Assembly (NCBI RefSeq): GCF_000420385.1
Contig: NZ_ATUV01000001.1
Coordinates: 744,001 to 808,000 of the forward strand
Source: Hippea alviniae EP5-r
GTDB lineage: Bacteria; Campylobacterota_A; Desulfurellia; Desulfurellales; Hippeaceae
Direction: 5' to 3'
DNA: 64,000 nt
Below are positions 13,285 to 60,707 of the stretch, in pieces. Positions within the stretch are counted from its first letter, which is position 1; the number at the start of each line of letters is the position of its first letter. The position numbers were made by a program, and so were the translations under genes. Under the pieces are notes generated by a model. It was given only the letters and a program-made list of their open reading frames with translations, did no database searches and was not told the DNA's origin.

Positions 13285-13334
13285 TTTTTATCACCTCAAT
13301 TCACAATTTTCTGAATTTATTGTTACACATTAAC

Positions 13335-13351: not shown

Positions 13352-13355
13352 TCAA

Positions 13356-14255: not shown

Positions 14256-14293
14256 GCTTGCTATCGTAATAAGGATTACCTTATCTTCAAACG

Positions 14294-14941
14294 CTATCCT
14301 TCTAATAAAATATATCCCCTTCCTTTTATGTTCTTTATCCTATCCTTACCCAAAACATTCCTTAACCTTTTTACATATGCCCTTATAGAATCTTCTCCCA
14401 CATCACTACCATCCCATACATACCTTAAAATCTCATCCACAGACACAACTTTTCCCTTATTCTTTACGAAAAGCTCCAACATACTCCACTCTTTCTGAGT
14501 AAATCCAACGACTTCGCTGTTCTTTTTGGCTATCTTATTATCTAAATCTATACAAACATCACCAATAATATACCTATTTGAATACACTCTTCTCAAAATG
14601 GAATTTATTCTCAAGATGAGTTCCCTTGGTTCAAACGGCTTAGTTATATAATCGTCAGCTCCAAGATTAAAGCAATCTTCTTTGCTTTCTATCCCAACCT
14701 TAGCCGTCAAAACAATAACAGGTATTGAGTATTTTTTTCTTATTTTAGCCAGCAACTCTTCGCCTTTTGAAAATTTCAATATCAAATCCAAAACAATCAA
14801 ATCATAGTGTTTGGAATTGAGAATAATCATTACATCTCTATCATCTTCTATCCAATCGCATAAAAAATCATTCTTATTCAAATATCTCTTTAAAGCATCA
14901 CCGAGATATTTATCATCTTCAACAAGCATTATCCTGTTCAT
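14294..14941 (-). CDS. OmpR/PhoB-family response regulator
   Basis: DNA-binding response regulator of 215 residues. The receiver domain (1-115) has the acidic pair ED at 8-9, phospho-acceptor D52 in IVLDLIL and the invariant K101 in YITKPFEP. The C-terminal winged helix (about 125-215) has the family pattern ending in RAYVKRLRNVLG and KGRGYIL. Partner of the kinase gene 38 bases downstream. The neighbouring pilus operon and the 11-base direct repeat before it suggest its target, by inference. It is divergent from tig. Confidence 0.93.
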   Translation of the reverse strand: MNRIMLVEDDKYLGDALKRYLNKNDFLCDWIEDDRDVMIILNSKHYDLIVLDLILKFSKGEELLAKIRKKYSIPVIVLTAKVGIESKEDCFNLGADDYITKPFEPRELILRINSILRRVYSNRYIIGDVCIDLDNKIAKKNSEVVGFTQKEWSMLELFVKNKGKVVSVDEILRYVWDGSDVGEDSIRAYVKRLRNVLGKDRIKNIKGRGYILLEG

Positions 14942-15006
14942 AAGAACCTTCCTGTAGAAATCCTTTTATTATTTTTATCATATTACACTTGCTCCAACAA
15001 ATAAAA

Positions 15007-15035
15007 TTGAAAAACCTAAACGCTTTTGGTATATT
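15007..15035 (+). promoter_or_regulatory. promoter for the tig-clpP-clpX-hslV-hslU operon
   Basis: TTGAAA (15007-15012) and TATATT (15030-15035) with a 17-base spacer, about 30 bases before the trigger factor ATG, which has AGGAGG at 15056-15061. Good sigma-70 type match. No heat-shock dyad like that before hsp20 is seen here. Confidence 0.6.
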
Positions 15036-15065
15036 CTGCTAACTAAAAGGCAAGTAGGAGGAAGT

Positions 15066-16400
15066 ATGGTGGAAGTAGCAATTGAAGATGTTAAACCTTC
15101 AAGAAAGAAACTTCAGATAAAGGTTGAACCAGAGAAAATTAAACAGAAAAAGGACGAGATTGTAAACGACTTCAGAAAAAGCGTAAATATAAAAGGATTT
15201 AGAAAAGGTAAAGTGCCAAAAGAGATTATCTTAAGAACATACAAGGAAGATATAATAGAAAACACAAAAAGAGAATTGATTGCAGAAGCTTATGAGTTTG
15301 CCATTCAAGATAACAAAATTGAAACAGTTGCAGACCCAGTATTTACTGAAATTAATTATGACGAAGAGAAAGGCCTAAGTTTTACAGCCACAGTCGATGT
15401 GAAACCAGAGTTTGAACTTAAAGAGTATAAAGGCATTGAGATAGAAGCAAAACCTATAGAAATCACAGAAGAAGATATAAACAAAGTTATAGAGCAGTTA
15501 AGAGAAGCATTTGCAACACTCGAAGATAAAGAAGATGGTGTATTCGAAGAAGGTGATATAGGTATTATCGACATAAAGACATTTACAAAAGAGACACACT
15601 ACCCAATAAACGACTTTGGCGGAGAAAATTTGCCTGTCGAACTTGGTAAAAAACAGCTCATTGAAGAGATAGAAAGCCAGCTTGCGGGTATGAAGGTTGG
15701 CGAAACCAAAAAGATAGAAGCAAGCTTTGACAAGGAGTATCCTTTAAGAGCACTAAAAGGCAGGGATGTCGTATTTGAAGTAACGCTAAAATCGTTAAAA
15801 CAGAAAAAACTGCCAGAACTAAACGACGAGTTTGCACAGAAAATCAACAAAGAGTTCAAAACCTATGATGACTTAATTGAAGACATCAAGAAAAGATTAA
15901 AAGAGAACAAAGAGTTAGAAGAGATAGAAAGACAGAAGAATGCACTGTTAGATAAGTTGCTTGAAGAGTATGATTTTGAGCTGCCGCCGAGCCTTGTTGG
16001 TCAAGAGACAAACCAGATGATAATGGAGTATGTAAAAAATATGTACTATGCAGGCGTTGATGTAAGCTCAGATGACTTCAAACCACAAGCCCTAAGAGAA
16101 AAATTTGAACCCGAAGCAAAAAGAAGGGTAAAAGCAACATTCATACTGCTTGAGATAGCAAAAAAAGAAGGCATCGATGTATCAAGCGAAGAGATAAACG
16201 AAGTTGTATCTCAACATGCAAACGCAAATAGAAAGACATTCGACGAGATGTATAAAGAGTATCAGGAAAAAGGCATTTTACCTTTAATTCAGATGGAGAT
16301 ACTGGGCGATAAAGCCCTTGACTTTGTCTATGAAAACGCAAAAATTATAAAACCAGAAGAGAATAAAGAAGAAAACAAGGAGAAGGAAGAGAAAGCATGA
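15066..16400 (+). CDS. tig: trigger factor
   Basis: Ribosome-associated chaperone and peptidyl-prolyl isomerase of 444 residues that meets nascent chains at the exit tunnel. The N-terminal ribosome-binding signature GFRKGKVPK is at about 44-52; an FKBP-type domain follows (about 150-240, with GDIGIIDI and a [10 protein letters not shown] segment), then the helical C-terminal arms and an acidic/basic tail rich in E and K. Length is standard. Strong AGGAGG before the ATG. First gene of a five-gene proteostasis operon; its stop overlaps the clpP start (ATGA). Confidence 0.97.
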
Positions 16401-29654: not shown

Positions 29655-30638
29655 ATGAAACACCCAAAACTCACCCAACCACACGATACATTCTTCAAAA
29701 AACTATTCAGCAATGAGAAAAATGTAAGGGATTTTCTTCTCTCTTTTTTGCCAGAAAAACTCAAGCAATCGCTTGACCTAAACTCAATAAAGGTTATAGA
29801 CACAGAGAAGATTTCAAAGAAGTATAAAAGGCATCATATTGATCTGATTGTCGAATGCAAAACAAGAGAAGAAGATAAAAAAGCTCAAATTTACATACTC
29901 TTTGAACACAAATCATATCCAGATAAGTTTACTCTCATTCAAATACTCTCATACATGATGACTATCTGGGAGAAGAACATAGAAAACAAAGAAGAGCTTA
30001 CTCCTATTATTCCCTTTATCTTCTATCATGGAAAGAGAAAGTTTGATCTGGCTGAGAATTTCTCTGATTACTTTTCAGTAAAAGATAAAAACATAAAAGA
30101 GTATCTATTAAACTTCAAAAGCATAATCTTCGATACAAACAGAATAGATGACAAAACACTCACAGAGAAGATAGACAATTTAAATCTCCTTGCTGCCCTT
30201 TTAAGTTTTAAACACATATTTGATGACATAGAAGAACTCAAACCTATATTCAAAACACTGATAAGTTTCGGAGAAAATGGACTTCTTCTGTTTTTGGAGT
30301 ATATTGTAATTAGCAGATCTGTTGATGAAGAAAAACTAAAAGAAGCACTCAAAGAGATTGGAGGTGATAAAGTGCCAACACTTGCACAGAAATGGTTTGA
30401 AGAAGGATTAGAAGAAGGCAAATATATAGGCTGGCAGGAAGGTGAAGTTGAAGGATTGAAAAAGGGATTACTCGAAGCAATAAAGATAGGCTTGCAGCTT
30501 AAATTTGGCAATAACAGTCTCACTCTGTTTGAGTCAGTAAAAGCAATCAAAGATATTGAAAAACTTAAACTCATAAAGGATGCAATTATTGATGCAAAGA
30601 GTGTTGATGAGATAGAGAAGCTTTTACCAAAAGACTAA
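29655..30638 (+). CDS. Rpn family recombination-promoting nuclease / putative transposase
   Basis: Protein of 327 residues of the Rpn/transposase_31 family (PF04754). The N-terminus PHDTFFKKLFSNEKNVRDFL is diagnostic. The PD-(D/E)XK residues appear as HIDLIVEC and ILFEHKS (E-H-K), then a helix with QILSYM. The C-terminal stretch has the glycine-spaced EEGLEEGKYIGWQEGE repeat seen in the family. E. coli RpnA-D stimulate RecA-independent recombination and cleave DNA. The gene is complete, flanked by unrelated housekeeping operons and shows no terminal repeats. Confidence 0.88.
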   Translation: MKHPKLTQPHDTFFKKLFSNEKNVRDFLLSFLPEKLKQSLDLNSIKVIDTEKISKKYKRHHIDLIVECKTREEDKKAQIYILFEHKSYPDKFTLIQILSYMMTIWEKNIENKEELTPIIPFIFYHGKRKFDLAENFSDYFSVKDKNIKEYLLNFKSIIFDTNRIDDKTLTEKIDNLNLLAALLSFKHIFDDIEELKPIFKTLISFGENGLLLFLEYIVISRSVDEEKLKEALKEIGGDKVPTLAQKWFEEGLEEGKYIGWQEGEVEGLKKGLLEAIKIGLQLKFGNNSLTLFESVKAIKDIEKLKLIKDAIIDAKSVDEIEKLLPKD

Positions 30639-33012: not shown

Positions 33013-34406
33013 TATCTTTGAAGAAGCTCCCTTATAAATTGATAAATTCTCTCAATAGAGTCTATTTTTACTCTCTCTTTCGGCGTATGCACACCTTCCA
33101 TATCAGGCCCAACAGAAATCATATCTATACCCTTAACCTTACCGGAGATAATTCCACACTCAAGGCCTGCATGTATCACTTCGATCTCTGGCTTTACACC
33201 AAACAGATTTTCGTATGTCTCAACTGCTTCTTTAAGTAATTCGGATTGATAGTTTGGCGTCCATGACGGATACCTGCTGTGTCTCTTCAACTCAGCACCA
33301 AATTCCCTTGCAGTAATCTCAATCAACATACCTATCTCGTCCAATCCACTCTCGGATAAGCTCCTTTGATTGGTTGCTATAAAAAATCTATCATCTTCAC
33401 TTTTCACAACGGCAAGATTGTTTGAAGTTTTGGGTGTCTTTTTATCAAGCATCTCAAATACACCATGCGGCAATCTATCCAAAAGGTCAATCAACTTCTT
33501 AAAACTCTCATGTTCGAAGGGCTCCTGACAAGCTTCAAACTCTTCTATCTCAACCTTCACATCTTCATCAGGATACATCTCTTTTGCCTTATCAAGCATC
33601 CTATCAACCGAAGACTTAAGTGTATCGTATGAACTTGCTAAAACCACTGCTTCACATCTATCAGGTATAGCATTTCTTGCCTTGCCGCCATTTATCTCAC
33701 AGAGCTGAAGGTTATACACAGCATCTTTAAGAATTTCCTTCATCAGTTTTATCGCATTCGCTCTGTTTTTGTTTATCTCTTGACCCGAATGACCACCTTT
33801 TAGATTGCTTATCGCAACCCTAAAAGCACTATCAAACCTTTTTTCGCCTTTCCTTGCGGGCAAAAATATCTCAATATCTTCACCACCTGCACAACCAACA
33901 ACAAACTTATTCTCCGTTTCAGAATCTATATTTATCAATCTGTCTGCTTCAAAAAACCCTTCTTCTAAAGCTAAAGCACCCTTTAATCCAATCTCTTCAT
34001 CGCTTGTAAACAGCAGTTTTAGATGCGGATGTTTAGCCGTTCTATCTTCCGCTATAGCAAGAGCTATTGCTATAGCCACACCATCATCAGCACCAAGCGT
34101 TGTGCCATTTGCCTTAAGCCAGCCGTCTTCTTCAATTACTTCAATCGGGTCTGAATCAAAGTTATGCTCAGACCAATCTTCTTTTACGCACACCATATCC
34201 ATATGACCTTGAAGAGCATAAACAGGTTTACTCTCATAGCCTTCCGTTGCAGGCACATCTATTAGAACATTCAAAGCTTTATCTTTTTTGCAAGAAAACC
34301 CATGCTCTTTGGCCCACTCACAAAGCCACTCTGCAATCTTCTCACACTTTGCTGAGCATCTTGGAATCTTTGATATCTCTTTAAAAATCTCTATTACCCT
34401 ACTCAC
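33012..34406 (-). CDS. pepD: aminoacyl-histidine dipeptidase (PepD, M20C)
   Basis: Zinc dipeptidase of 464 residues, close to the family length. The M20 metal motifs are GHMDMVCVKE (about 86-95), LGADDGVAIA (about 119-128) and TSDEEIGLKGA (about 148-158); HAGLECGI near 420 provides the last ligand region. It would hydrolyse Xaa-His and other dipeptides in the cytoplasm. Overlaps the HD-GYP gene by four bases and mobB by one base. Confidence 0.93.
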   Translation of the reverse strand: MSRVIEIFKEISKIPRCSAKCEKIAEWLCEWAKEHGFSCKKDKALNVLIDVPATEGYESKPVYALQGHMDMVCVKEDWSEHNFDSDPIEVIEEDGWLKANGTTLGADDGVAIAIALAIAEDRTAKHPHLKLLFTSDEEIGLKGALALEEGFFEADRLINIDSETENKFVVGCAGGEDIEIFLPARKGEKRFDSAFRVAISNLKGGHSGQEINKNRANAIKLMKEILKDAVYNLQLCEINGGKARNAIPDRCEAVVLASSYDTLKSSVDRMLDKAKEMYPDEDVKVEIEEFEACQEPFEHESFKKLIDLLDRLPHGVFEMLDKKTPKTSNNLAVVKSEDDRFFIATNQRSLSESGLDEIGMLIEITAREFGAELKRHSRYPSWTPNYQSELLKEAVETYENLFGVKPEIEVIHAGLECGIISGKVKGIDMISVGPDMEGVHTPKERVKIDSIERIYQFIRELLQR

Positions 34407-36511
34407 ATCAACAACTCCTCAAACTCCTTTTTTCTCTGTTTGCACTCATACATCATGTCCTCTGCACTCTTACCCGGCACAAACTCTGAAAATGATACAT
34501 AATAACTAATTATCCTACTCCAACCCTTCATAAAAAATTCTTCTTTTGACAGCTTATCTATAACATAATCCTTAACATACTTTTTAAGCTCTGCAGAATA
34601 CAAAGCAGGCTCACTAACGCCAACAACAACAAAATAGAAAGCATCAGGCTCCGTCCTTGCAAGAAACCTTATCTCTTCTCTCTTTTTCAACGCTTCAGCT
34701 GTATGAATTATTATTTTATCACCTATCTCCATTGAGTATCCGTAATTTATATAACTTAAGTTTTTTATATCGAAATAGAACATAACAAACCGTCTGCTCT
34801 CTTTTATGTAATCCGAAACAGCCCTTACAAACTGTTTTCTTCTTAAAAGGCCTGTCATGTAATCCGTTGTAAATATCTGCTCCCTTATTTTATCTATCTC
34901 TTCTGGAACAAATGACTTCTCCTTGCTTGCACTCTTCAGATATTCGTATGCTTCCCTTAATGAGTCTATGGATTTCTCAACTATCTTCTGGTCAAGCTCA
35001 TCTGACATGTGCTTTTGTATAACTTCAAGCGCTCTCTCAAGCGCAAGACTTCTTCTGTAAGGCCTGTTCGTTGTTATAGCATCAAACACATCAGCAATAG
35101 CCAAAATCCTTGCACACTCTGGAATTTCCTGACATGTCAAACCCTTAGGATATCCGCTCCCATTACAGCGCTCATGATGATACCTAACACAATCCGATAT
35201 ATCCTTAAACTGTTTTATGTTTTTTATAATTTGATACGAAAATTCAGCATGATTTTTTATTATCTTATACTCATTGGGTGTAAGTTTACCCGGCTTTAAA
35301 AGAATATTATCTGGAATCCCAATCTTACCTATATCGTGCAGAAGGCCAGCCGTGTAAATCTTCTCCTGCTCAATCTGATTATATCCCAAAGCCTTAGCTA
35401 TACTTTTAGCATAGAATGCAACCCTTTGAGAGTGTCCTTTCGTATATGTGTCCCTTGCTTCCATCATGAGAATAAACGACTCAAGAAAGCTGGTTTGCGT
35501 ATCAACAAGCTCATTGTTTAAAATTGAAACATTCTTTGAAGCAATAAGCATAAAAGTTAGGTGTGCTGCTGAATTTTGAAGAGCAAGTTTATAATCCCTA
35601 TCTATGTTTATCTTCCTATCAAACCCAAAACCAACGGCAACAATAACCCTATCGTTAAATTTAACAGGGACAAAAAGTCCAGATTTTATGTTTATCTGCT
35701 TAGAGACAGAAGAAGGTTTGAGCCCGTATTTATTTAGCTCATCAAAACTAACTATATCACCTATAGATTTCTCGTATATCTGATACAAAATATAATCTTT
35801 TATCTCATCTGTTATTTCAAAACTAAACCTTACTCTAAGCTCATTATTTTCCTTATGGATGGCAACATATATATTCTCATTGGGAAAGATAAAACCTACA
35901 GCTTTAGCATCTGTGATATGAAGTATATTTTTAAGATAAGCAACCACCCAACTCTTAAGCTTTTCTCTATTGAAAAAATCCGGCAGATTTTGACTATAAA
36001 AAAACTCAAACTCCTTAATCATTAAAGAGAGAATTTTGTCTGAAGTATCTATTTTAGATTTATGATAAAGAACAAAAGAAATAACTCTTGCAATTGTTTC
36101 AAGCAGAGATACCTGATTTGGTGTAAATTTTTTAATATCGCTAAACGATGCAACCTGCAAAGCGCCAAAAACCTTATCCTTGAAATAGACAGGAACGCTC
36201 AGCAGGCTTTTCATCCCCTTTTCTATCCATTTTTGACTTGCAAACTGACATGTAGCATAATTTCTAACAACAAAAGTACTCTTTTCGAGAATAGTCTTCG
36301 CAGCTACAGTATCTGATTCAACCTTGTTTCCGTCTAAATCTTCTTCTGAAGAATGACAAATAAGCAAACTTTCATCTTCATAGCTCGCAAAAAACGCCGC
36401 ATTTATATTGAACAACTTTTTAATTTTATTCAGTATATATTGCCAACCATTCTTCTCAAACTCACCACTATGTAAATCTTCTATAATCTCTAAAAACAGC
36501 TTCTCTTTCAT
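34403..36511 (-). CDS. GAF / HD-GYP phosphodiesterase with degenerate GGDEF domain
   Basis: Cytoplasmic regulator of about 702 residues with no transmembrane helix. A GAF domain (about 20-155) and a second GAF-like region (about 175-340) precede an HD-GYP domain (about 350-525) with LLHDIGKIGIPD and HHERCNGSGYP, so c-di-GMP hydrolysis is expected. The C-terminal GGDEF fold (about 545-700) has RTEPDAF where GGDEF should be, so it probably cannot make c-di-GMP. I chose the ATG at 36509-36511 overlapping the previous stop (TGATG); a TTG one codon earlier exists. Embedded between two peptidase genes. Confidence 0.92.
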   Translation of the reverse strand: MKEKLFLEIIEDLHSGEFEKNGWQYILNKIKKLFNINAAFFASYEDESLLICHSSEEDLDGNKVESDTVAAKTILEKSTFVVRNYATCQFASQKWIEKGMKSLLSVPVYFKDKVFGALQVASFSDIKKFTPNQVSLLETIARVISFVLYHKSKIDTSDKILSLMIKEFEFFYSQNLPDFFNREKLKSWVVAYLKNILHITDAKAVGFIFPNENIYVAIHKENNELRVRFSFEITDEIKDYILYQIYEKSIGDIVSFDELNKYGLKPSSVSKQINIKSGLFVPVKFNDRVIVAVGFGFDRKINIDRDYKLALQNSAAHLTFMLIASKNVSILNNELVDTQTSFLESFILMMEARDTYTKGHSQRVAFYAKSIAKALGYNQIEQEKIYTAGLLHDIGKIGIPDNILLKPGKLTPNEYKIIKNHAEFSYQIIKNIKQFKDISDCVRYHHERCNGSGYPKGLTCQEIPECARILAIADVFDAITTNRPYRRSLALERALEVIQKHMSDELDQKIVEKSIDSLREAYEYLKSASKEKSFVPEEIDKIREQIFTTDYMTGLLRRKQFVRAVSDYIKESRRFVMFYFDIKNLSYINYGYSMEIGDKIIIHTAEALKKREEIRFLARTEPDAFYFVVVGVSEPALYSAELKKYVKDYVIDKLSKEEFFMKGWSRIISYYVSFSEFVPGKSAEDMMYECKQRKKEFEELLM

Positions 36512-37881
36512 CAATAACTTTCAAAAAACGCCTTATAAGCCTTATATGTCTCATACAAATCGCTTTTTGAAACAATCTCATAAGGTGAATGCATAGAAAT
36601 TAAAGCAGGTCCGCAGTCAACAACATCCATATTCCATGCAGCTAAATATTTGGCTATTGTTCCACCGCCGCCTTCATCAACTTTACCCAACTCGCCTATC
36701 TGCCAATTCACACCTGCATCATTGAATATCTTTCTTATTTTGCCAACAAACTCAGCTGATGCATCGTTTGCCATATACTTTCCGCCATGTCCTGTAAACT
36801 TCGTCAAAACAACGCCACCGTTTACATAGCTCGCATTATCCTTTTCGTGCACTTCCTTATACATAGGATTTACAGCACCATTCACATCTGCACTTAGAAC
36901 TTCTGAACTCTTCAAAAACTCACCCACATTTTCAAAACTGGGCTCTATGCCCTTCTTCTTCAAGATTTCAACAACAACATCAAGCAAAAACCTTGACTTT
37001 GCACCTGTGTTGCCGTCTGAACCAATCTCTTCCTTATCAACCATTAAAGCAACAATTGTCTTCTTCGAGTTTGCATCAAAGAATGCTTCTTTTGAGCAAT
37101 ATGCACAAATCCTATCATCATGACCGTATGCAGCAATTAAACCTTCATCAAAGCCAATATCTCTTGGTTTAAATGCTGGAACAAGCGTAAGCTCTGCGGA
37201 TATAAAGTCTTCTTCAACAATACCATACTTCTCGTTCAAAATCTTCAAAATATTCAGTTTTACAGTATCCTTCTCTTCGTCATCTATTGGAATACTTCCA
37301 ACGATTAGCTTCATCTTTTCTGCTTCAAAGGCTTCTTTTACCTTCTTATCGTCCTGTATCTTGTGAGAGAGATGTGGCAGAAGGTCTGGCAAAACAAAGA
37401 TTGGGTCGTTATCGTCTTCTCCAACGACAACATTCAAAACTTCACCATCGCCTTTCACTATAATTCCATGAATGGCAAGTGGAATGTTAAACCAGTGATA
37501 CTTTTTAATACCACCATAATAGTGCGTATGAAATAGAGCAAAACCCGTATCTTCAAACAATGGATTCTGTTTTAAATCGATTCTTGGTGCATCTATGTGG
37601 CTTGCTATGATTTTTGCACCAAAACCGTCGCCAATCCTTATTAGAGCAACAGACTTGCCTCTATTGACGATAAAAAAGTCGTCCTTTTCTGCCCTGCTTC
37701 TAAACTCTTCTTCAACAAACCTGACAACTTCCCTTTCTGTTTTGCAGCTTCCTATAAACTCTTTGTATTTCTCAGCAAAGTAAAAAACATTTTTATGATA
37801 CTCATCATCTTTTCCAATCCAACCATTCCTGTTTTTATAAGATAACTTCTCTTTCAACTCCTTTATCTCATCCTTTGTCAT
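36511..37881 (-). CDS. M18 family aminopeptidase
   Basis: Tetrahedral zinc aminopeptidase of 456 residues. Metal-binding motifs are ASHIDAPRIDLK (about 90-101), YGHDDRICAY (about 250), DKEEIGSDGNTGAKS (about 275) and a C-terminal HSPYEIVSKSD. Family members release N-terminal acidic or neutral residues in the cytoplasm. Overlaps proS by four bases and the HD-GYP gene by one. Together with PepD it suggests peptide recycling in this operon. Confidence 0.93.
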   Translation of the reverse strand: MTKDEIKELKEKLSYKNRNGWIGKDDEYHKNVFYFAEKYKEFIGSCKTEREVVRFVEEEFRSRAEKDDFFIVNRGKSVALIRIGDGFGAKIIASHIDAPRIDLKQNPLFEDTGFALFHTHYYGGIKKYHWFNIPLAIHGIIVKGDGEVLNVVVGEDDNDPIFVLPDLLPHLSHKIQDDKKVKEAFEAEKMKLIVGSIPIDDEEKDTVKLNILKILNEKYGIVEEDFISAELTLVPAFKPRDIGFDEGLIAAYGHDDRICAYCSKEAFFDANSKKTIVALMVDKEEIGSDGNTGAKSRFLLDVVVEILKKKGIEPSFENVGEFLKSSEVLSADVNGAVNPMYKEVHEKDNASYVNGGVVLTKFTGHGGKYMANDASAEFVGKIRKIFNDAGVNWQIGELGKVDEGGGGTIAKYLAAWNMDVVDCGPALISMHSPYEIVSKSDLYETYKAYKAFFESY

Positions 37882-42110: not shown

Positions 42111-44717
42111 ATGGATATAAACAGACTAACGGTAAAATCGCAGGAAGCCCTACAAACTGCAAAAGAGATTGCAGATTCTCACAAAAATCAGCAGATAGGT
42201 TCTTTACACCTTTTAAGAGCATTAATCTCTGACAAAGAGAGTGTTGCTGTCTCTATCTTGAAGAAATTAGGCATCGATGTATCAGCATTTGCATCATACA
42301 CAGATGAGCTTATTGAGAGAATACCAAAGGTTGAGCTTACAGGCTCAACATCAACACAGTTCTATATAACTCAAGAACTTGATGATGTGTTCAAAAGAGC
42401 CGAAGAGCAGATGCGCTTAATGGAAGATGAGTATATCTCGGTTGAGCATTTCTTGATTGCTCTATCCGAAAAATGCGATGCAGCTGAAGTTTTCAAATAT
42501 TTCAACATCAAAAAAGATGAACTTCTAAAGGCCTTAGTTGATATAAGAGGCGGTGTTAGGGTTACAGACCAAAACCCAGAAGAGAAGTACGAAGCTTTGA
42601 AAAAATACGGAAGAGACATAACCCAACTTGCAAGAAGCGGAAAATTAGACCCGGTTATCGGAAGGGACGAAGAGATAAGAAGAACAATTCAGATACTCTC
42701 AAGAAGAACAAAGAATAATCCTGTTTTAATAGGTGAACCGGGCGTGGGTAAAACCGCTATAGTAGAAGGTTTAGCTCAGAGAATAGCAAACGGCGATGTT
42801 CCAGAAAGTTTGAAAGACAAAATATTAATTGAGCTTGACTTGGGTGCACTGATTGCAGGTGCAAAATTTAGAGGTGAATTCGAAGAGAGACTAAAAGCTG
42901 TCTTAAACGAAGTAAAAAGGTCAGAAGGTAAAATCATACTATTCATTGATGAGCTTCACACAGTCGTTGGAGCCGGTGCAGCAGAAGGTGCAATGGATGC
43001 ATCTAACATGTTAAAGCCAATGCTCGCAAGGGGAGAGCTGCGCTGTATCGGTGCAACAACGCTGAAAGAGTATAGGAAGTATATAGAGAAGGATGCTGCT
43101 CTTCAGAGAAGATTTCAACCAGTATTCGTAAAAGAACCAAGCGTCGAAGACACAATATCAATTCTAAGAGGATTGAAAGAGAAATACGAGCTTCATCATG
43201 GCGTAAGGATAAAGGATTCTGCACTTGTTGCAGCAGCGGTTCTAAGTCATAGATACATAACAGACAGGTTCTTGCCGGACAAGGCAATAGACTTAATAGA
43301 CGAAGCAGCAGCAAGTCTAAAAACTCAGCTTGAAAGTGATATCGAGCCAATAGATAACCTAAACAGAAAGATTGCCCAGCTTGAGATAGAGCGTCAGGCA
43401 CTCAAGAAAGAGAATGACGAAGACTCCAAAAAGAGACTCGAAGAACTCGAAAAAGAGTTGAGCCAGCTCAAAGAAGAGCTTAACCAGATAAAAGCAAGAT
43501 GGCAGTATGAGAAGGGCTTGATAGAATCGATAAGAAAGATAAAAGAAGAGATAGACAAGGTAAAAACTCAGATAGAAATAGCAGAAAGAAACGGCGATTT
43601 TGAAAAGGCGAGTGAGTTAAAATACGGCAAACTGCCAACATTACAGAAAGAGCTTGAAGAGAAACAGAAAGAGCTTAACTCAATAGAAAATAGACTGCTT
43701 AAAGAAGAAGTTACAGAAGAAGAAGTTGCTGCAATCGTCTCCAGATGGACGGGTATCCCAGTTTCTAAGATGCTTGAGAGCGAAAAAGAAAAACTCTTAA
43801 AGATGGAAGAGAAGCTCAAAGAAAGGGTTGTAGGTCAAGACCACGCTGTAAAAGCCGTAAGCGATGCAATCCTACGCTCAAGAGCTGGATTGTCCGATAA
43901 AAACAGGCCTATAGCATCGTTTATGTTCTTAGGTCCAACAGGTGTAGGTAAAACTGAGCTTTCCAAAGCATTAGCCGAGTATCTGTTTGACGACGAGAGA
44001 GCAATGATAAGAATAGACATGAGCGAATATATGGAGAAACACTCCGTTGCAAGACTAATCGGTGCACCACCCGGCTATGTTGGATATGACGAAGGTGGAC
44101 AGCTCACAGAAGCAGTAAGAAGGAAGCCTTACTCTGTAATCTTGCTCGATGAGATAGAGAAGGCTCATCCAGATGTATTTAACATCCTATTGCAGGTGCT
44201 TGATGATGGAAGATTAACGGATTCCAAAGGCGTTACAGTTGACTTTAGAAATACCGTCATCATCATGACATCCAACATAGGGAGTGAGTATTTGACACGC
44301 ATAAAAGGTGAACCTGGCACAGAAGCGTATCAAATAGAGTTCGAAAAGGCTAAGTTAGCTGTCGAAGAAGAGCTAAAGAGAAGATTTAAACCAGAGTTCT
44401 TAAACAGGGTTGATGAGATTATAGTATTCAATCCGCTCGGCAGAAAAGAGATTAAGCAAATCGTAAAACTCCTGCTCAACAAGACAATGAAGAAGGTTGA
44501 AGAAGCTGGATACAAGCTTAAAGTAAGCGATGCTCTGATAGAGAGAATTGCAGATGAAGGATTCGACCCAGTCTATGGCGCAAGGCCACTAAGAAGATAC
44601 ATACAAAACAAGCTTGAGAACGCATTAGCAAGAGCAATCCTAAAAGGCGATTTTGTAAAAGGCGACACGATTTTCGCAGACATAGAAAACAACGAGATAG
44701 TCTTCAAAAAAGCCTAA
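42111..44717 (+). CDS. clpB: ATP-dependent disaggregase ClpB
   Basis: Hsp104-family chaperone of 868 residues that works with DnaK to dissolve aggregates. Two Clp-N repeats (about 1-145), NBD1 with Walker A GEPGVGKT (about 205) and [11 protein letters not shown], the coiled-coil middle domain (about 400-530), then NBD2 with GPTGVGKT (about 606), the GYVGYDEGG pore loop and [10 protein letters not shown]. The middle domain distinguishes it from ClpA. GGAGG before the ATG. Expected to be heat-inducible with hsp20. Confidence 0.97.
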
Positions 44718-44732
44718 TTGAAAAACTTACAA

Positions 44733-44765
44733 GGGATAGTCGCAGTTTTGCGGCTATCCCTTTTT
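44733..44765. terminator. terminator between clpB and the convergent surface-protein operon
   Basis: GGGATAGTCGCA (44733-44744), loop GTTT, TGCGGCTATCCC (44749-44760), then TTTTT. A 12-base stem with one G-T pair and a T-run for the clpB direction. It also lies directly after the stop of the leftward small membrane protein and could end that operon too. Confidence 0.8.
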
Positions 44766-45036
44766 ATTTTACCCACCTTAACTTTAAGCCTTCAATCCAA
44801 ATAATATAGACAAAATCAAGAAGACCAAATGGGCAGAAGCAGAAGATAAAAAATACACCTACGAAGACTATAAAAATTAGCAAGACAACGAGGGATAGGA
44901 ATAATAAACGGCATAGCGCGCAACATAACACCAGCACCCAAATAAAGATCGGGAGATATTTACTTTGAGCTGATAAAACCAAATCAAAGGGAAAATATAA
45001 AATGCGGCTTATTCTTCCCCCAACATAATTATTCAA
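44764..45036 (-). CDS. small membrane protein of unknown function
   Basis: Predicted protein of 90 residues, mostly hydrophobic from about residue 27 to 82, with at least two membrane segments and a cluster of cysteines (LCCALC, FCFCPFG). I recognise no family. Its ATG lies just inside the end of the WSC/PAN gene (eight-base overlap), suggesting coupling, and its stop is followed by a strong terminator. A real gene is likely but not certain; no good Shine-Dalgarno sequence is seen. Confidence 0.55.
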
Positions 45037-46684
45037 ACTTCACATAATCTATAAAAATGTATTCAAAATACCAGTTGTTGGCATATCCTATAATCCTAAT
45101 ATGAGCATTTTTGCCGTAGAATTTTGACAAGGGCACACTGACGAGATGCCATTTTCTGCCGTCTATAATTTTTCTAAAGATATTCACTCTATTTACATTA
45201 ACAATCAAGAGAAAATCTCCATTTTTATTACCTGCAACTCTTACAATCATCTTCTCATCGGGTCTTGTTATCTTAATATCTCCTTCCAAAACAGCTGGGT
45301 CAACTATTGTAATAGGATGCAAATACAAGACACCCGAAGCAAAAGATGGCGGGTTAGCATCGCCGATTTTTATAGCCCTATTTTTCCATCCAAAATATTG
45401 ATTAGAGTTAGGTATCATTGTTGGATTGCATCGATAAACCTTAAATATGCTCCCCCAACTTTCCCTTATCTTAAATTTTTCAGGCATTAATTTAACTATA
45501 TCCTTAACACCAGACACACAGTTTTTGTTAAAAGAAGGTGTAGGAACAGCGTATTTTAGCCAACATTTTGCACTATTCGATTGAACATGCGGCTTAACAT
45601 AAGTCCAAGCAACACACTTAGACTCTCTATAACACGCATTTTTGCAAAGTATTGGATTAGCACTGTTAAGTTCAAAGTTTTTATAATCCATACCCATCCT
45701 ATCAATATCACTCTCAAATACTATTTCACTCTTTGGATTAATTAATCCTGTAAGATAAACACTATTAGCCCAGCTTCCACCACATATTTGACTTTTATCG
45801 CCTGAACATTTCATATTACAATTGTTACTTTTGCCATATTTTCCATAATAGTTGCCACAGAAACACCAAGACGCATACTGAACACCCGCATATAAAAATC
45901 CATGTTTTCTGCATATATCTTTACATTTTCCGATACTCATTTTGGAATCTTGAACAGAAAAGCCAGATAAATCCCTTGCTGAACCATCTTTAAAACAACC
46001 AAGATAGGAGATGCTTAAAACTTGCTTAGCCTGTTTTTTGCTATTAGTTGGTGTGCCTTCGCTATTTTGAGCTGCAACGCTCACTTTTGGACGATTATTA
46101 GCCACAGTTCCAACAAAAGGCAAATGAATTATTTTAGCTGTATGATAATAGACAATAGAAGGCCAAGCCGCATTTGGACCACCTGTAATATGTTTGAGTG
46201 CAAGATGAACTCTTGCTTCTTTACCTTGATATTCAGCAGATATAATTTTTTTAATCTCTCCAGAAATAGAATCGGGTGCCTTCTTCTCCCACTGACCTAA
46301 ACCACCATATCTTAACCAAACAGTAGGTGGCCTTATAACCAAAGAACCCAAAGAAATCTTTTTTATGCCCACACCATCCTTATCCTGTTTGTTAATACAC
46401 CATTTTCCCTTTGCAAGACACCCTTTGGCCAAATTATAATACTCCCAGAATACAGGGTATATAGGATGCGAAGACTCTTTAACTTCAAGCCATGCTTCAA
46501 CACTATCCTGTTCGGGTATAGGTGTATTTAATCCATAAGCTGTAAATTTAACTTCTATTAGAATCTTACTATTCGAAGGCTTTGCTTTGAAGTTATCTAT
46601 CCTTATACCTGTGACTTTCGCATAAGAGAAAGCCGACAAAACAAAAATAAGCAAAATAGTTAATATAACGCTTTTTTTACTCAC
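45029..46684 (-). CDS. secreted WSC- and PAN-domain protein
   Basis: Exported protein of 551 residues. Signal peptide with cut near SYA/KV (22-23). Residues 25-210 are an unrecognised beta-rich region. A WSC domain (about 226-313) shows YLGCFKDG, the spaced cysteines 230, 254, 258, 274, 276, 289, 293 and 301, and [15 protein letters not shown]/apple-like domain (about 323-397) has cysteines 347, 351, 357, 374 and 389. The C-terminal 150 residues look like a jelly-roll carbohydrate-binding fold. WSC domains bind carbohydrate and are best known from fungi; here they suggest surface-glycan binding. Fourth gene of a five-gene operon. Domain calls are by eye. Confidence 0.8.
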
Positions 46685-46696
46685 TGCTTTCCTCCC

Positions 46697-49600
46697 TTAA
46701 AACCTATTTGAGCCACCACCATAAACCCATTTGAACCTTATAAACGCTTTAAAACCTGTGCCACCTGTTTTGATAACTTCAAGTTTAGCATAGTGCCCTT
46801 CTTGGGTTCTAACGCAGTATGTATGACCAACCTTAGCTAATGTGTGAGCATAGTAGTCACTATATCCACTCTTTGGACAAACTTTAACATTACCTAAACT
46901 TACTCTACCCATATCCCTTATCATCCCGACATTAAAGTAAGGTTTATCATAACCCTTTACCTTTGGATTCACAAAACCAGCAGCTATATCCATCTCCCTA
47001 TTTGAGTATTTGCCAGTCTCGAAATCTAATGAGTAACCAACCCATTTCGTAGATTTTGCATGACTCAATACAGCTATCTTAACTCTACCGTTCTTATCGT
47101 TATTCTTCTTGTTGTTGGATATTTTAAATGGAGACAAAAACGAATCTCCCTCTATTTGATCAATAATAAAAAACGTTCTCGTGCTTTGAATATTAAAACA
47201 ATTCACAATCTTTACAATAGCTACACCTTTTCTATTTATATCACCATCAACTCTCCACGGAAGCCTAATTGTTGCACTCCAAAACCGCCCACTCCTCTCA
47301 AAACTTTTAAAATTAACCACAGTAAACGGATAGAACACGAGCCTATGCTTGAAATTACTCCTATTTTCATTGGCTATCTTGACAAGAACATCCGTTGTGT
47401 TTGAACCTCTTGCAAAAAATTTATCAATAGATTTACCGGAATTGTATGTGTTCTCAAAATCATTCAAAAATCTCTCCAACGAAGAAAATTTCCGTTTGTA
47501 TGTTATGAGAATATATGTTCCATCACCTTTGTAATTTGCATAGTTTTTGATGCTAAATTTAAGCACATAAAAGCTTTTATTCTTGGTTGGGTAAAAATCA
47601 CATACAAAATGGCCTTTTCCATCTATCTTACATTTCTTAAACCTGCCATCAACCAAAAACCCGACTGTTTTTACTCTACACTTTCTATTATTACCATATG
47701 CTTCATAATCACCGTTTATTGTAAGATAACCTTGATTTGTCAAATTATTTGATGTTATCATTAAACTTCTAAATACTCTTCTACCGTTTACATAAAGTGC
47801 TTTTATTCTCATTGCACCACAGGCGGGATGTTTATCGTTAAAGTCATTCAACATTCTCTCATAAATGGCTATATCAAAGAAAGGCTTGAACGGCAGAACT
47901 TTAGCCTTATCTAAAGCTATGCTAAACTCATAAGGATTTTTTTCAACACCTTGACTCAAAATATCGTATAATTGTTTTTCTACTCTTTTGAGTTTATAAA
48001 GTAAATTATAAGCATTCTTAAAAACGTTACTTTTTACCCAATCGCAATACCCTAAATTCGGTTTATAGAGTCCTCTCATACAACTTTCAAACCTATATAC
48101 AGCATCTTCTGCTTCTTCTGTAATTAATTTAATTCGACTAAATGTCGAGTTTACCATTCCAAAATACCAGATGAACTCTTTATACTTATTAGCCCTTCTC
48201 TTCTCTACCGACAGACAATTTGCAAAAACCCTCTCCGCACTCTTGAGCTCTGACTCATAAAAAGATAAAGGTTTATAAAATCTCTTATCTATTCTACTCA
48301 TAGCTATCTTCAAAGATTTCTGACGCGGCATTATTTCACTGCTTATAATTTCAAAATTTTCTCCATATTTTAGATAAAGCTTAAATAGAATAGCATTGAT
48401 TTTTCCAGCTTTATCCTCAGCTTCACCAAGCCTTTTATCGATGCTATTTATATTTTTCACAATTTTACAGTAATTAAAAAAAGTCATATTGTAAACTCTT
48501 TCATTTAAATTCTGTTGAGTCTTCAGAAACCCGATATAATCAAGCAACTGTTGATACAAAAATGCAAGTTTAAAACTTCTGTCTTCCATGTTTGACAATA
48601 TACTTTCTGCTCTCATATAATGTTTTTTTACTTTCGGTTCACAAGAACTAACCATACGTTTATCCGAATATACCATTTCATCTTCATCACCACTCATCTT
48701 AGAAAAGATATACTTTGCGCCAAAATTATCGATAAAATTAGAAAGCTCTACTTGTTTCGAGTTGTAATCTGATATCAATTCAATTTCATCTTTATAAAAA
48801 TCTTCAATATATCTACTAAAGTCTTCTACAGCCTTAGAGTAGAGTTCTACATCATGCTCAAGCTTTCTTCTCAATTTTTCATATATTTCTATTCTCTTCT
48901 TAAGAGCCTCAAATGTTATCTTATGTTTACTCTCCATTAACTCCTTAAACTCTTCAGCACTTCTTTCTATCTGATAAATTTCTACATCATTTAAGCTTCT
49001 ATCGTTCTTCAGCTTTTTAACTTCAGACTTTACAACATCGGGAATATTGTCTCTTTTACAAATACTCTCTTTTATTTTTTCAAGTTTATTCATAGCATCA
49101 GCTCGTTTATTTCTAACCATATTCAGTATACTTCTAAAATCAGATTTAAACTTATCCCAATTTTTCACATCCAGTTGAGTTGACCTATAAGTACGATAAT
49201 AATTTTGGGCACTTTTGTAAGCACTTTCACTATAAGAGATAAAAGTTGAGAAACTTATAGACTCGCTTATATAATCGTTTGCAAGCCTCCTTTCAAACTC
49301 AATATAAGGTTCGAAAAATAGCACTTTTGAAGGACTAATACCTTTAGACTCCATCTCTATAACTTTCTCTGTCTTTTTCTGAGCATCTTTTATAGTCCTT
49401 TTTAACTTGCTGTCTATTTCGCCATTTAGACCTTCTATTAATTCTGAATATTCAACACCTTTTACATTTAATATTTTATTTTTTATACTTTTTGCTATTT
49501 TCTCTGTATCTCTGCTCTTAATTAGCTTTTCCCACTCTCTCTTTTTTTTACTTGCTTCTTCAATTACTCTGCTTCTAAATTTATCATTTAATATAAAAAG

Positions 49601-50545
49601 CCTAACATTTTGTTCTGTTGCTGGAATTTCGGCAGACACAAGAGCAGAATAGGCTTTTGCAATATATCTTCTGTTCGCTTTATTTAGAGTCTTTAAAAGA
49701 GAAATGTACGTAGCAATAGTTATTTCTTTATCTTTGGGCAGACTACTATTTATTGTCCATACAGTATCAACCAACTTTCTGTAAGTTTCATCATTATCAT
49801 ATCTGTTTAATGTTCTCTCGTTAACAGGCTCTTTAGCAGCCTTCAATCTCCACGAAATAATGTCATAATGCATCTGCAAGTTTGCAACCTTTTGATAAAT
49901 CTCCCTTTTGGCTCTTTCTGCCGCGCGCTTTGCCTTATCAATAGCATAAAAATATCTTCTATAACGTGTATGAATCAACAAAGCCTCAGCCCATATTTTA
50001 CTTCTTAACTGCTCATAGTATTTTTTTCTGTATGCATAAGGAACACTCCTTCCAAGTTCACTATTCCCTATCCTATCATCAAACCATGCATTAACTCTGG
50101 CAATAAAATCCTTCCACTTAGGCACTGACTTACTAACCTTCCAAGATTCCACCTGCTCTTTTAGGAAGTCTCTTTTGAAATGGAGAATATCCGTTTTTTC
50201 ATTAAATTTTATCATTTGACCGTAAACACTCTTGGTGAAATTCCACGCAACACCAATAACTGAAGCCCCGGCAGAACCTACAAGAATGCCAAGCACTTGA
50301 CTCGCAACTTCTTCACTTATGACTTGTTTAGCCTTATCAAACTCTCCGTGTGACATATGGTCAATTGCCTGCAATATATTTTCAACGGGAATATCTGTTC
50401 CTAATCTTTTATTGAGTTCATTATGAAGCTCATATTTGACGGCTTCCCACGCATATTTCTTTACTTCTTTTGAACTCAAAGCAAAACTATTAACTTGGAA
50501 TATAAAAACAACAACAATCACAACAATAATTTTGAGTCTTCTCAT
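46697..50545 (-). CDS. very large secreted coiled-coil protein of unknown function
   Basis: Protein of 1282 residues with a signal peptide or anchor (MRRLKIIVVIVVVFIFQ..., cut near residue 22). A hydrophobic glycine/alanine stretch lies at about 84-102. From about 150 to 790 it is almost all charged helix (K, E, R rich), as expected for long coiled coils. The last 400 residues are beta-rich with paired cysteines, and end in a compact module with VGHTYCVRTQEGHYAKLEV. No enzyme motif is seen. Twelve bases separate it from both neighbours. It may be a periplasmic or surface fibre; the role is unknown. Confidence 0.8.
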   Translation of the reverse strand: MRRLKIIVVIVVVFIFQVNSFALSSKEVKKYAWEAVKYELHNELNKRLGTDIPVENILQAIDHMSHGEFDKAKQVISEEVASQVLGILVGSAGASVIGVAWNFTKSVYGQMIKFNEKTDILHFKRDFLKEQVESWKVSKSVPKWKDFIARVNAWFDDRIGNSELGRSVPYAYRKKYYEQLRSKIWAEALLIHTRYRRYFYAIDKAKRAAERAKREIYQKVANLQMHYDIISWRLKAAKEPVNERTLNRYDNDETYRKLVDTVWTINSSLPKDKEITIATYISLLKTLNKANRRYIAKAYSALVSAEIPATEQNVRLFILNDKFRSRVIEEASKKKREWEKLIKSRDTEKIAKSIKNKILNVKGVEYSELIEGLNGEIDSKLKRTIKDAQKKTEKVIEMESKGISPSKVLFFEPYIEFERRLANDYISESISFSTFISYSESAYKSAQNYYRTYRSTQLDVKNWDKFKSDFRSILNMVRNKRADAMNKLEKIKESICKRDNIPDVVKSEVKKLKNDRSLNDVEIYQIERSAEEFKELMESKHKITFEALKKRIEIYEKLRRKLEHDVELYSKAVEDFSRYIEDFYKDEIELISDYNSKQVELSNFIDNFGAKYIFSKMSGDEDEMVYSDKRMVSSCEPKVKKHYMRAESILSNMEDRSFKLAFLYQQLLDYIGFLKTQQNLNERVYNMTFFNYCKIVKNINSIDKRLGEAEDKAGKINAILFKLYLKYGENFEIISSEIMPRQKSLKIAMSRIDKRFYKPLSFYESELKSAERVFANCLSVEKRRANKYKEFIWYFGMVNSTFSRIKLITEEAEDAVYRFESCMRGLYKPNLGYCDWVKSNVFKNAYNLLYKLKRVEKQLYDILSQGVEKNPYEFSIALDKAKVLPFKPFFDIAIYERMLNDFNDKHPACGAMRIKALYVNGRRVFRSLMITSNNLTNQGYLTINGDYEAYGNNRKCRVKTVGFLVDGRFKKCKIDGKGHFVCDFYPTKNKSFYVLKFSIKNYANYKGDGTYILITYKRKFSSLERFLNDFENTYNSGKSIDKFFARGSNTTDVLVKIANENRSNFKHRLVFYPFTVVNFKSFERSGRFWSATIRLPWRVDGDINRKGVAIVKIVNCFNIQSTRTFFIIDQIEGDSFLSPFKISNNKKNNDKNGRVKIAVLSHAKSTKWVGYSLDFETGKYSNREMDIAAGFVNPKVKGYDKPYFNVGMIRDMGRVSLGNVKVCPKSGYSDYYAHTLAKVGHTYCVRTQEGHYAKLEVIKTGGTGFKAFIRFKWVYGGGSNRF

Positions 50546-50557
50546 ACAAAACTCCTT

Positions 50558-51526
50558 TTAAATAGCAGGATTTAACACCACAACAACATAAATGTATTTG
50601 CCGTCGCATTTAAACGGCCTGCTCGAACCATACATTCTCTTAGAAAAAGCCTTTAACTGATAAACACCTTTTCCTATTTTAAATGCGTTGCTACTTAACT
50701 CGGTTTGATACTGTTCCTTAGTCAATTTATTGAGTATAAGCTTTACTTTACTTTTTAGCCGATAAAAGTTGCTACCCACTATAATTACTTTAACATTGCA
50801 ACTACTCAAAACCTTTGGGTTTCTATTGCCAAAAAATTTACGCTTCAGAAAATCTGCAAGTTCAAACTTACCTTCACCTTTAACTTTTGAAATAAGACTT
50901 CTATCAACTCTAAAAACAGATACAAGATTTCCTTTTTCTTTGCTCTCTTGAGACATACATACCCTTAAAAAATCATCTAAATTAGCAATTGTATAATTTT
51001 TGGGCTCCTTCTCAAAAACATCAGGTTTCTCAATAAGATGCAAATATACATCTTTACACTCATCATATCGGTCAAAATTAATATACTTAACCGTTGAGTA
51101 ATCGGCAGGATATATTTCAACTTCACGCAAAGGAGTTGGCAGTTTAACATTAAAATACACCAAAAAACCGCTATCTTCATCAATAATCCTTGATTCTTCG
51201 CTTAAAACAAAGCCATCAAAATCAAAATCCCTTATATGTCCATCAACGCCAAGCGACACACCGCTCTTTGAAACAGGATTAAAAGCAGAAAAACCAATAG
51301 GAACAGCATCATATAAAACAGAACTGGTAAAATTGACAAAATAGGCATGCTTTTTATCAAGTTTTAAAAACAACCCATCATATCCAACACTCCTAACATT
51401 CACAGACAAAAACTTACCATCAGACTCTGCTTTTACAATGTCAATTTCTTGTTTACTTGTCGCTTCTTTTTTGCATGAATATGTAAAGAAAATTACAAAC
51501 AATAAAAATAAAAGAAAACTTCTCAC
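50558..51526 (-). CDS. putative lipoprotein of unknown function
   Basis: Protein of 322 residues with a short hydrophobic leader ending FFTYSC, a plausible lipobox with lipidated Cys at residue 18. The mature part is mixed alpha/beta with repeated short beta stretches (FLSVNVRSVGYDGLFLKLD...), four further cysteines (ECKD, RVCM, SSCN, FKCD) and no recognised family. Overlaps the preceding gene by four bases. By position it may anchor or process the large coiled-coil protein encoded next. Confidence 0.75.
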   Translation of the reverse strand: MRSFLLFLLFVIFFTYSCKKEATSKQEIDIVKAESDGKFLSVNVRSVGYDGLFLKLDKKHAYFVNFTSSVLYDAVPIGFSAFNPVSKSGVSLGVDGHIRDFDFDGFVLSEESRIIDEDSGFLVYFNVKLPTPLREVEIYPADYSTVKYINFDRYDECKDVYLHLIEKPDVFEKEPKNYTIANLDDFLRVCMSQESKEKGNLVSVFRVDRSLISKVKGEGKFELADFLKRKFFGNRNPKVLSSCNVKVIIVGSNFYRLKSKVKLILNKLTKEQYQTELSSNAFKIGKGVYQLKAFSKRMYGSSRPFKCDGKYIYVVVVLNPAI

Positions 51527-52299
51527 TTCTCAAATCTCAAAAACAGACCTTCAATCTTCCAGCTTGAACCATCTTTGGAGTATTCAAATCTAAATCCTAC
51601 CTTTTTGGGTGATGTAGGATAATAGCCTTCTACTCTTAAAACGCCATTTTCAAGAACATTCGTTCTCTTTATAACAGGCTGCATTGAATCTATATCATTC
51701 CAATTTATATTAACGGATGCAAACCTTTTGAATACAGATGCGAGTCTCTCCTTTGGAATCTGGTTTTTGAAATTATCAGATGCAAGCATGTAAACCTTAG
51801 AATAATCATTGTTTAATATGCCATCAACAATAGCATCCATTGTCTTTTTCACAAGAAAATTATAATTACTATCAGACGAATTATTGCTATTAGATGCAAC
51901 ATCAACACCTGTGGGTGATAAAGAAATATAGTTTATCTTCCACTCTTCTCCTTCTTTCACCAACACTATCTCAACAGGCATAGAAGAGCCATCAGAAAAC
52001 TCTATTTTACCCTTCAATTTGGCTGTTCCATCTGCATTCTTCTCTCTGCTGCTAAAAGAACAACCTGAGTAATTCCTAAATCTATTATAAGGGAAAACCT
52101 TTTTTAGAGCCGATACAGATGTAACTCTTTTGAAATCATTAGAAACATACATTTGAGCCTTACTATAATCTCCATTCTTTATAGCTGTGAAAAAGTTATT
52201 AGCAACATCAGTTAAATCCGAAGTAAAGAACATTGCAGCAGCAAAGCCAATAACAGCGAGAAAAACAAGAAAAACCAAAACCTTAAACAATTTTTTCAT
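51523..52299 (-). CDS. membrane-anchored protein with two NTF2-like repeats
   Basis: Protein of 258 residues with an N-terminal membrane anchor (about 5-26). Two similar halves follow: the first includes NGDYSKAQMYVSNDFK (about 42-57), the second NNDYSKVYMLASDNFK (about 164-179), each followed by a beta sheet typical of DUF4878/NTF2-like folds (KEGEEWKINYISL, KDGSSWKIEGLFL). Such domains bind ligands or proteins outside the membrane. First gene of the five-gene operon, behind a near-consensus promoter. GGAGG precedes the ATG. Confidence 0.75.
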   Translation of the reverse strand: MKKLFKVLVFLVFLAVIGFAAAMFFTSDLTDVANNFFTAIKNGDYSKAQMYVSNDFKRVTSVSALKKVFPYNRFRNYSGCSFSSREKNADGTAKLKGKIEFSDGSSMPVEIVLVKEGEEWKINYISLSPTGVDVASNSNNSSDSNYNFLVKKTMDAIVDGILNNDYSKVYMLASDNFKNQIPKERLASVFKRFASVNINWNDIDSMQPVIKRTNVLENGVLRVEGYYPTSPKKVGFRFEYSKDGSSWKIEGLFLRFEK

Positions 52300-52368: not shown

Positions 52369-52397
52369 AGTATAAAATATTTCTAAAAATATGTCAA
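52369..52397 (-). promoter_or_regulatory. near-consensus promoter for the surface-protein operon
   Basis: Minus strand TTGACA (52392-52397) and TATACT (52369-52374), 17-base spacer, about 70 bases before the first gene. One of the best promoter matches in the window, suggesting strong constitutive expression unless repressed. Confidence 0.65.
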
Positions 52398-59822: not shown

Positions 59823-60707
59823 ATGAGACACTTTATTTCAATTAAAGACTTATCAAAGGAAGAAGTTAAACATTTAGTAGAAAGGGCTTTAAAATTCAAA
59901 CAAAACCCTGAAGAGTACAAAGGCAAACTGAAGGATAAAACCATTATCAGCATATTCTTTGAGAACAGCACACGAACGAGAACATCGTTCGAGATAGCTG
60001 CCAAAAGAATGGGTGCAAGTTTCATAAATATAGACCACAATCAGTCGAGCATAAAAAAAGGCGAAACAGACTACGACACAATAATAAACCTAAGCGCTAT
60101 GCAGCCAGATGCATTTATTGTAAGACATTACCACTCTGGTTATCCCTATTTTTTAAGCAGATTTACTAATATTCCAATCATCAATGCTGGTGATGGAACA
60201 GCAGCGCATCCTTCTCAAGCAATTCTGGATGCAACAACAATGCTCGAAGCAAAAGGAAAACTGGAAGACCTAAAAGTTTGCATAATTGGAGATATAGTAA
60301 ACAGCCGAGTGGCAAAAAGCCATATATGGATGTCAAAACTACTCAACTGGAAGCTAAGCTTCTATGGACCAAAAACAATGCTACCGGATAGAAGATGGCT
60401 TGATGGAATAAAGATAGAAAAGAGTCTTGAAGACGCCCTGTCGGGTAAAGATTTCATTATGCTTTTAAGGATTCAACTTGAAAGGGAAAGCGGCAGTAAT
60501 ATACCTTCCTTAAAAGAGTATGCCAAGTTCTTCGGTATAAACAGCTCAAATATTCCGGATTCATATCTAATGCATCCAGGTCCTGTAAATAGAAATGTTG
60601 AGTTATCATCTGAAATTTTAGACAGTTTCAACAAGTCGTTGATAACCAAGCAGGTTGAGAATGGTGTATTTGCCAGAATGTCGATTTACGAATTTTGTCT
60701 TATCTAA
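59823..60707 (+). CDS. pyrB: aspartate carbamoyltransferase catalytic subunit
   Basis: Catalyses the first committed step of pyrimidine synthesis, carbamoyl phosphate plus aspartate. Carbamoyl-phosphate motif STRTRTSFE (about 51-59), the flexible loop region near HNQSSIKKGE, and HPGPVNR (about 257). Length 294 fits the short bacterial type. No pyrI or pyrC follows; RapZ precedes with one base between. Confidence 0.95.
   Translation: MRHFISIKDLSKEEVKHLVERALKFKQNPEEYKGKLKDKTIISIFFENSTRTRTSFEIAAKRMGASFINIDHNQSSIKKGETDYDTIINLSAMQPDAFIVRHYHSGYPYFLSRFTNIPIINAGDGTAAHPSQAILDATTMLEAKGKLEDLKVCIIGDIVNSRVAKSHIWMSKLLNWKLSFYGPKTMLPDRRWLDGIKIEKSLEDALSGKDFIMLLRIQLERESGSNIPSLKEYAKFFGINSSNIPDSYLMHPGPVNRNVELSSEILDSFNKSLITKQVENGVFARMSIYEFCLI

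Follow-up and report, generated by a model that had tools for sequence, protein, structure and literature searches.

A proposed four-gene transcription unit of Hippea alviniae that may serve a modular, glycan-binding envelope assembly

We analyzed a 64,000-nucleotide stretch of the Hippea alviniae EP5-r genome (contig NZ_ATUV01000001.1, positions 744,001 to 808,000; hereafter the window), in which a row of leftward open reading frames (ORFs) next to clpB had been put forward in a preliminary description as a five-gene surface-protein operon. The genome (G000, 1.75 Mb) is that of a heat-loving sulfur bacterium of the genus Hippea (Hippeaceae, Desulfurellales), and no literature on these proteins in Hippea was found. 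The five minus-strand ORFs were recovered with the close spacing claimed for them: genes 1 and 2 share 4 bases, gaps of 12 bases separate genes 2 and 3 and genes 3 and 4, and the overlap between gene 4 and the last ORF is 8 bases. The features of the locus are as follows, in window coordinates.

52369..52397, minus strand: sigma-70-like promoter TTGACA-17-TATACT in the leader of gene 1, matching 11/12 consensus positions
51523..52299, minus strand: gene 1, 258-residue NTF2-like protein with an N-terminal hydrophobic anchor (residues 1-30) and two NTF2-like repeats
50558..51526, minus strand: gene 2, 322-residue putative lipoprotein (Cys18) with beta-sandwich domains around a helical insert
46697..50545, minus strand: gene 3, 1282-residue exported protein with a signal sequence, a helical part (~93-905), a beta region (917-1016), an NTF2-like topology (1017-1135) and a C-terminal domain (1136-1282)
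46697..47140, minus strand: C-terminal domain of gene 3 (~residues 1136-1282), common to small exported proteins of unrelated bacteria
45029..46684, minus strand: gene 4, 551-residue exported WSC/PAN protein (WSC 227-303; PAN_4 327-377)
44764..45036, minus strand: 90-codon ORF with a TTG start and codon usage like that of antisense ORFs, claimed as a tiny membrane protein
44731..44762, no strand assigned: intrinsic terminator stem-loop, its T-tract strong on the plus strand (clpB) and weaker on the minus strand

Four of the five claimed genes are convincing. The codon usage of genes 1-4 ranks with that of real genes and each has relatives, which argues that they are genuine. Each product is exported or anchored through an N-terminal hydrophobic stretch (the lipoprotein through an invariant Cys18), and the description of exported or membrane proteins lacking an enzyme motif was upheld for these four. 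The fifth ORF is unlikely to be a gene. With a codon score of -0.28 it lies outside the range of window genes (0.09 to 0.45) and within that of antisense ORFs (-0.25 +/- 0.18), and on synonymous codons alone each of 120 length-matched stretches taken from real genes scored higher. It also lacks a Shine-Dalgarno sequence and has no relatives in the related loci compared.

The near-consensus promoter of the preliminary description is present, and a clear AAATGGAGGT ribosome site lies between it and the NTF2-like gene. Only three sites matching at least 11/12 of the sigma-70 consensus occur in 9.5 kb on both strands, so that placement in the correct leader is a coincidence of about 2% by our own estimate; consensus promoter matches overall were near chance (42 observed against 35.4 +/- 6.1 expected). 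The sole 12/12 site (48592-48621, plus strand, 18-base spacer) lies within the 1282-residue gene on the opposite strand with no notable ORF downstream, and is probably there by chance. The terminator credited to the far end of the operon proved to be mainly that of its neighbor. On the plus strand, on which the stem was scored, it lies just behind clpB (42111-44717, plus strand) and is followed by TTTATTTT; its minus-strand tail is GTAAGTTTTT. It thus belongs first to clpB, with bidirectional use possible but weaker on the minus strand.

The protein families were examined across nine Hippea genomes. Many of these are fragmented, so absence from a draft genome is weak evidence. The first repeat of gene 1 exceeded the Pfam cut-offs of DUF4864 and DUF4878, both NTF2-like (39.9 bits against 27.1 and 29.2 bits against 24.1, respectively), and the second gave a weaker match to DUF3887. 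Relatives occur in 9/9 Hippea genomes and in G011. Because it is found genus-wide and beside several partners, the NTF2-like protein may be a general periplasmic helper. In three Hippea genomes (G008, G007 and G004) a gene for an FGE-sulfatase-type exported protein adjoins the NTF2-like gene or lies close to it, and its product is possibly a further partner; these genes lie as follows.

L039, 8670-9770: FGE-sulfatase-type gene
L045, 6224-7324: FGE-sulfatase-type gene
L036, 1028-2134: FGE-sulfatase-type gene

Gene 2 carries an imperfect lipobox (TYSC) when judged by the pattern [LVI][ASTVI][GAS]C after a hydrophobic stretch. Relatives read LISC, LLSC or IFGC, and Cys18 is invariant in an alignment of five of them. 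Its AlphaFold2 model (predicted local distance difference test, pLDDT, 75.4) sets beta-sandwich domains around a helical insert, and Foldseek returned generic Ig-like matches only. The family was found in 6/9 Hippea genomes and in G011; the G005 copy is truncated at the end of a contig and that in G003 is interrupted by stops. A scan of the genome-contig collection with the lipoprotein alone as query gave no match. The G003 copy (L082, 10077-11545) lies right after pyrB, contains one TGA and two TAG codons in a six-frame match and has the beginning of an Ig-type gene after it. It is decayed or mis-assembled.

The model of gene 3 (residues 1-82 left out) was of low confidence (mean pLDDT 57.7) and showed a beta region after some 800 helical residues. 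No Foldseek match reached E < 0.001, which makes the NTF2-like and Ig-like labels for the beta region weak; periplasmic fragments of PBP5 and TraM were among the non-significant matches. Homology between its NTF2-like region and gene 1 found no support (profile comparison probability <1). The protein matched no family in Pfam or NCBIfam, and a search of PDB sequences with the 1282 profile found none. Relatives, ~30% identical within the genus, were present in G001, G003, G004, G005 and G006; the family was found only in Hippea, with none among viral contigs and plasmids. The long helical exported chain, a short hydrophobic segment near residues 80-100 and the fast divergence would also suit a secreted toxin or antagonism protein, with the lipoprotein and WSC/PAN protein as accessory or protective proteins. 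We regard this as very improbable, given that searches of Pfam, NCBIfam and PDB sequences yielded no toxin family and that the copies are single and full-length, with neither a cassette array nor an obvious immunity gene.

The last 150 residues of gene 3 are by far its best-conserved part. A search of 386 genomes with a profile of this domain turned up 15 outside Hippea that each encode one small exported protein with it, and comparison with L108/L110 gave an hhalign probability of 97.9 (E 5.7e-13). With the C-terminal alignment as query, the genome-contig collection yielded only two Hippea-type loci. The small exported proteins ending in this domain are encoded at the following positions.

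L108, 742-1959
L110, 1477-2682
L109, 1345-1887
L111, 1204-1887
L112, 1399-2013

L108 and L110 may also carry the preceding NTF2-like region, a likeness that is not significant by profile comparison. The domain is widespread and exported, no Pfam model reaches threshold on it, and it is useful for annotation on its own.

All five members of the 1282 family matched Pfam HmuY (PF14064) below threshold, the best at 8.1e-5. The window domain scored 18.3 bits and its relatives at most 23, against a cut-off of 27, and the match was limited to the last third of the profile (positions 112-157). With no member over the cut-off and only part of the profile covered, assignment of the domain to HmuY was rejected. 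A system for haem or metal acquisition based on an HmuY-like domain could draw on these shared sub-threshold matches and on two histidines, H1162 and H1241, that are invariant in the family. With the match covering profile positions 112-157 only, no correspondence could be drawn between these and the haem ligands reported for HmuY, His134 and His166 (PMC2671838). No PDB sequence matched the C-terminal profile even at E 10, and a TonB-dependent receptor gene was not found among the cluster and scanned flanking genes. Such a system is therefore scarcely to be expected here. In comparison with the HmuY haemophores, the strand pattern of the domain resembles the profile end; it differs in the partial, sub-threshold match and the missing cognate receptor, and its closest full-domain matches are the small exported proteins of other bacteria.

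In gene 4, WSC (PF01822) scored 71.4 bits against a cut-off of 27.8 (7.4e-20) and PAN_4 (PF14295) 58.3 bits against 27 (7.9e-16), and eight WSC cysteines (C230, C254, C258, C274, C276, C289, C293 and C301) are invariant in six relatives. Profile matches in the PDB were to Kremen (5e-14) and fungal WSC-type proteins. The region before the WSC domain has no family assignment, and the C-terminal region is common to the G001 relative only. WSC and PAN domains are established glycan binders in eukaryotes, where they are typically extracellular; by analogy, the gene 4 product may bind glycans. WSC/PAN relatives were found in 9/9 Hippea genomes. Both this family and the NTF2 family are single-copy in all nine, which argues for function rather than debris.

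Parts of the locus recur together elsewhere. The NTF2-like and lipoprotein genes are neighbors in two genomes, with 74 bases between them in G004 and an overlap of 4 bases in G011; in G001 the NTF2-like gene adjoins a 1282-type gene (47 bases). Two further loci are as follows.

L038 (G008), 8680-15702: lipoprotein-Ig699-Ig673-WSC/PAN run
L042 (G004), 9965-14872, minus strand: gene for a 1635-residue fusion of a ~1,200-residue N-terminal region, two WSC domains and PAN

The genes of the G008 run are separated by 90, -62 and -19 bases. Its ends resemble those of the window (lipoprotein, 27% identity; WSC/PAN, 45% over 190 residues), whereas the place of the helical 1282-residue protein is taken by a 699-residue and a 673-residue Ig-like/CarboxypepD_reg-like protein. 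These two are mutually homologous (35%) and suggest duplication of a connector protein. Overlapping parts of the run were found in G002, G003, G005, G006, G011, G014 and G001; an Ig-type gene lies beside the WSC/PAN gene in G001, G005, G006, G011 and G014, and the lipoprotein gene lies beside an Ig-type gene in G002 and G003. Ig-type genes were undetectable in G000 and G004, where the WSC gene is beside the 1282-residue gene (window) or fused to the long region (G004). The N-terminal 1,200 residues of the fusion have no relatives elsewhere in the class, and its cysteine-containing C-terminal region, common to other Hippea WSC proteins, has no Pfam match.

That a lipoprotein, a large exported protein and a WSC/PAN protein are repeatedly encoded side by side suggests a shared task. 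Our tentative reading, to which we give slightly less than an even chance, is that the four genes form a transcription unit for a modular, glycan-binding cell-envelope assembly typical of Hippea. All four proteins would cross the inner membrane, as their N-terminal hydrophobic sequences suggest. The NTF2-like protein would stay anchored there as a periplasmic helper, and the lipoprotein would probably be sorted to the outer membrane under the E. coli rule, because in none of the relatives is the lipid Cys followed by Asp. In the low-confidence model the 1282-residue protein would be a long helical stalk or scaffold with a cassette of beta domains at its end, and the WSC/PAN protein would supply the glycan-binding end. 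An arrangement of lipoprotein anchor, long connector and glycan-binding tip would fit these domains. Across the genus the lipoprotein and WSC/PAN protein would be kept while the large neighbor varies (Ig-like in most, helical here, a fused region in G004), and the assemblies of different species would be expected to differ in reach or ligand as a result. A bolder form of this idea, a surface apparatus known to date from Hippeaceae alone in which a fixed lipoprotein anchor and WSC/PAN tip take exchangeable connectors of unrelated fold for species-specific reach or specificity, strikes us as unlikely.

Several observations weigh against the modular assembly. The same genes in the same order were looked for in related genomes, and neither the five- nor the four-gene order was found in any other genome examined; none of them has all four genes in one place. 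A conserved operon is thus rejected; the exact operon is peculiar to this genome among those examined. The 1282-type gene stands amid unrelated genes in G003, G004 and G005 (e.g. an enoyl-CoA hydratase-type gene), and in G008 the NTF2-like gene lies ~60 kb from the lipoprotein gene, beside an FGE-sulfatase-type gene. Four genomes (G001, G003, G005 and G006) carry both Ig-type and 1282-type genes, which are hence not strict alternatives, and homology between the helical part of the 1282-residue protein and the N-terminus of the G004 fusion was unsupported (hhalign probability 10). Finally, outer-membrane export machinery is not encoded alongside the operon, so surface exposure of its products is putative.

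The setting of the locus bears on how the genes came together. The upstream sirtuin-aldolase-DedA-dnaG block is conserved, and the gene after the sirtuin gene differs among genomes, which places the operon at a rearrangement point. Insertion of the four genes as one block was considered and rejected, as there is no clean empty site and the downstream side of the sirtuin block varies. The lipoprotein gene directly follows pyrB in G002, G003 and G005, and the pyrB homologue of the window (59823-60707) lies within 8 kb of the operon; local regrouping would be the simplest history. These features, together with the unique gene order and the separation of three of the parts in several genomes, fit an accidental recent neighborhood, in which separate envelope genes were rearranged next to clpB and share transcription without forming a complex. 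Against this, independent pairings (NTF2-lipoprotein, NTF2-1282 and lipoprotein-Ig-WSC) recur in several genomes, and chance adjacency of two given genes among ~1,700 is of the order of 1/1000 per genome. We consider accidental neighborhood an unlikely alternative. Homologues are largely scattered, the outcome that was to count against the preliminary description, but pairs and runs recur in a manner that is not random, and none of the profile matches places the genes in a known pathway.

Synteny does not uphold the single conserved structure of that description, but a weaker form of the proposal, in which the envelope proteins act jointly and bind glycans, fits the way in which the parts regroup. 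The further idea of an envelope-spanning or extracellular structure would require the large proteins to leave the periplasm, a putative step. They might instead form a periplasmic scaffold that binds cell-wall or capsule precursors and never leaves the cell. The N-terminal sequences are of Sec type only, no secretion gene lies in the cluster, the 1282-type gene is solitary in three genomes, and NTF2-like domains occur in periplasmic assembly proteins (cf. the PBP5 and TraM fragments above). The usual extracellular location of WSC and PAN domains in eukaryotes speaks against a periplasmic system, and the high divergence within the genus suits exposed proteins better; we judge such a system unlikely. 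If the modular assembly is real, it would add a family of envelope assemblies whose large parts are exchangeable, in vent bacteria whose surface biology is little known, and would place WSC/PAN domains, familiar mostly from eukaryotes, in a bacterial context. The locus also illustrates that mobile parts regrouped locally can give the impression of a fixed operon when a single genome is considered.

Three other features of the window were recorded. Minus-strand genes at 7278-12925 include a PilW-like minor pilin gene with an N-methylation motif (PilW over the cut-off) and a 1268-residue VWA/PilY1-like gene (PilY1 below the cut-off), and probably represent a type IV pilus minor-pilin and adhesin cluster. 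A YhgA-like putative transposase (29655-30638, plus strand; PF04754, 1.5e-42) is a lone mobile-element-type gene between minus-strand genes. The product of 34403-36514 (minus strand) has GAF, HD-GYP-type and GGDEF matches within a single chain; their order, GAF-HD-GGDEF, may be unusual.

The two proteins of the locus with clear family assignments can be compared with known systems. Gene 1 resembles the NTF2-like envelope proteins of DUF4864 and DUF4878 in clearing both family cut-offs, and differs from them in its two repeats behind a membrane anchor and in partners that vary among Hippea genomes. Gene 4 shares with Kremen-1 and the fungal WSC proteins both WSC and PAN domains over curated cut-offs. 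It differs in having its own N- and C-terminal regions and no transmembrane signaling tail, and in being an exported bacterial protein encoded together with large partner proteins.

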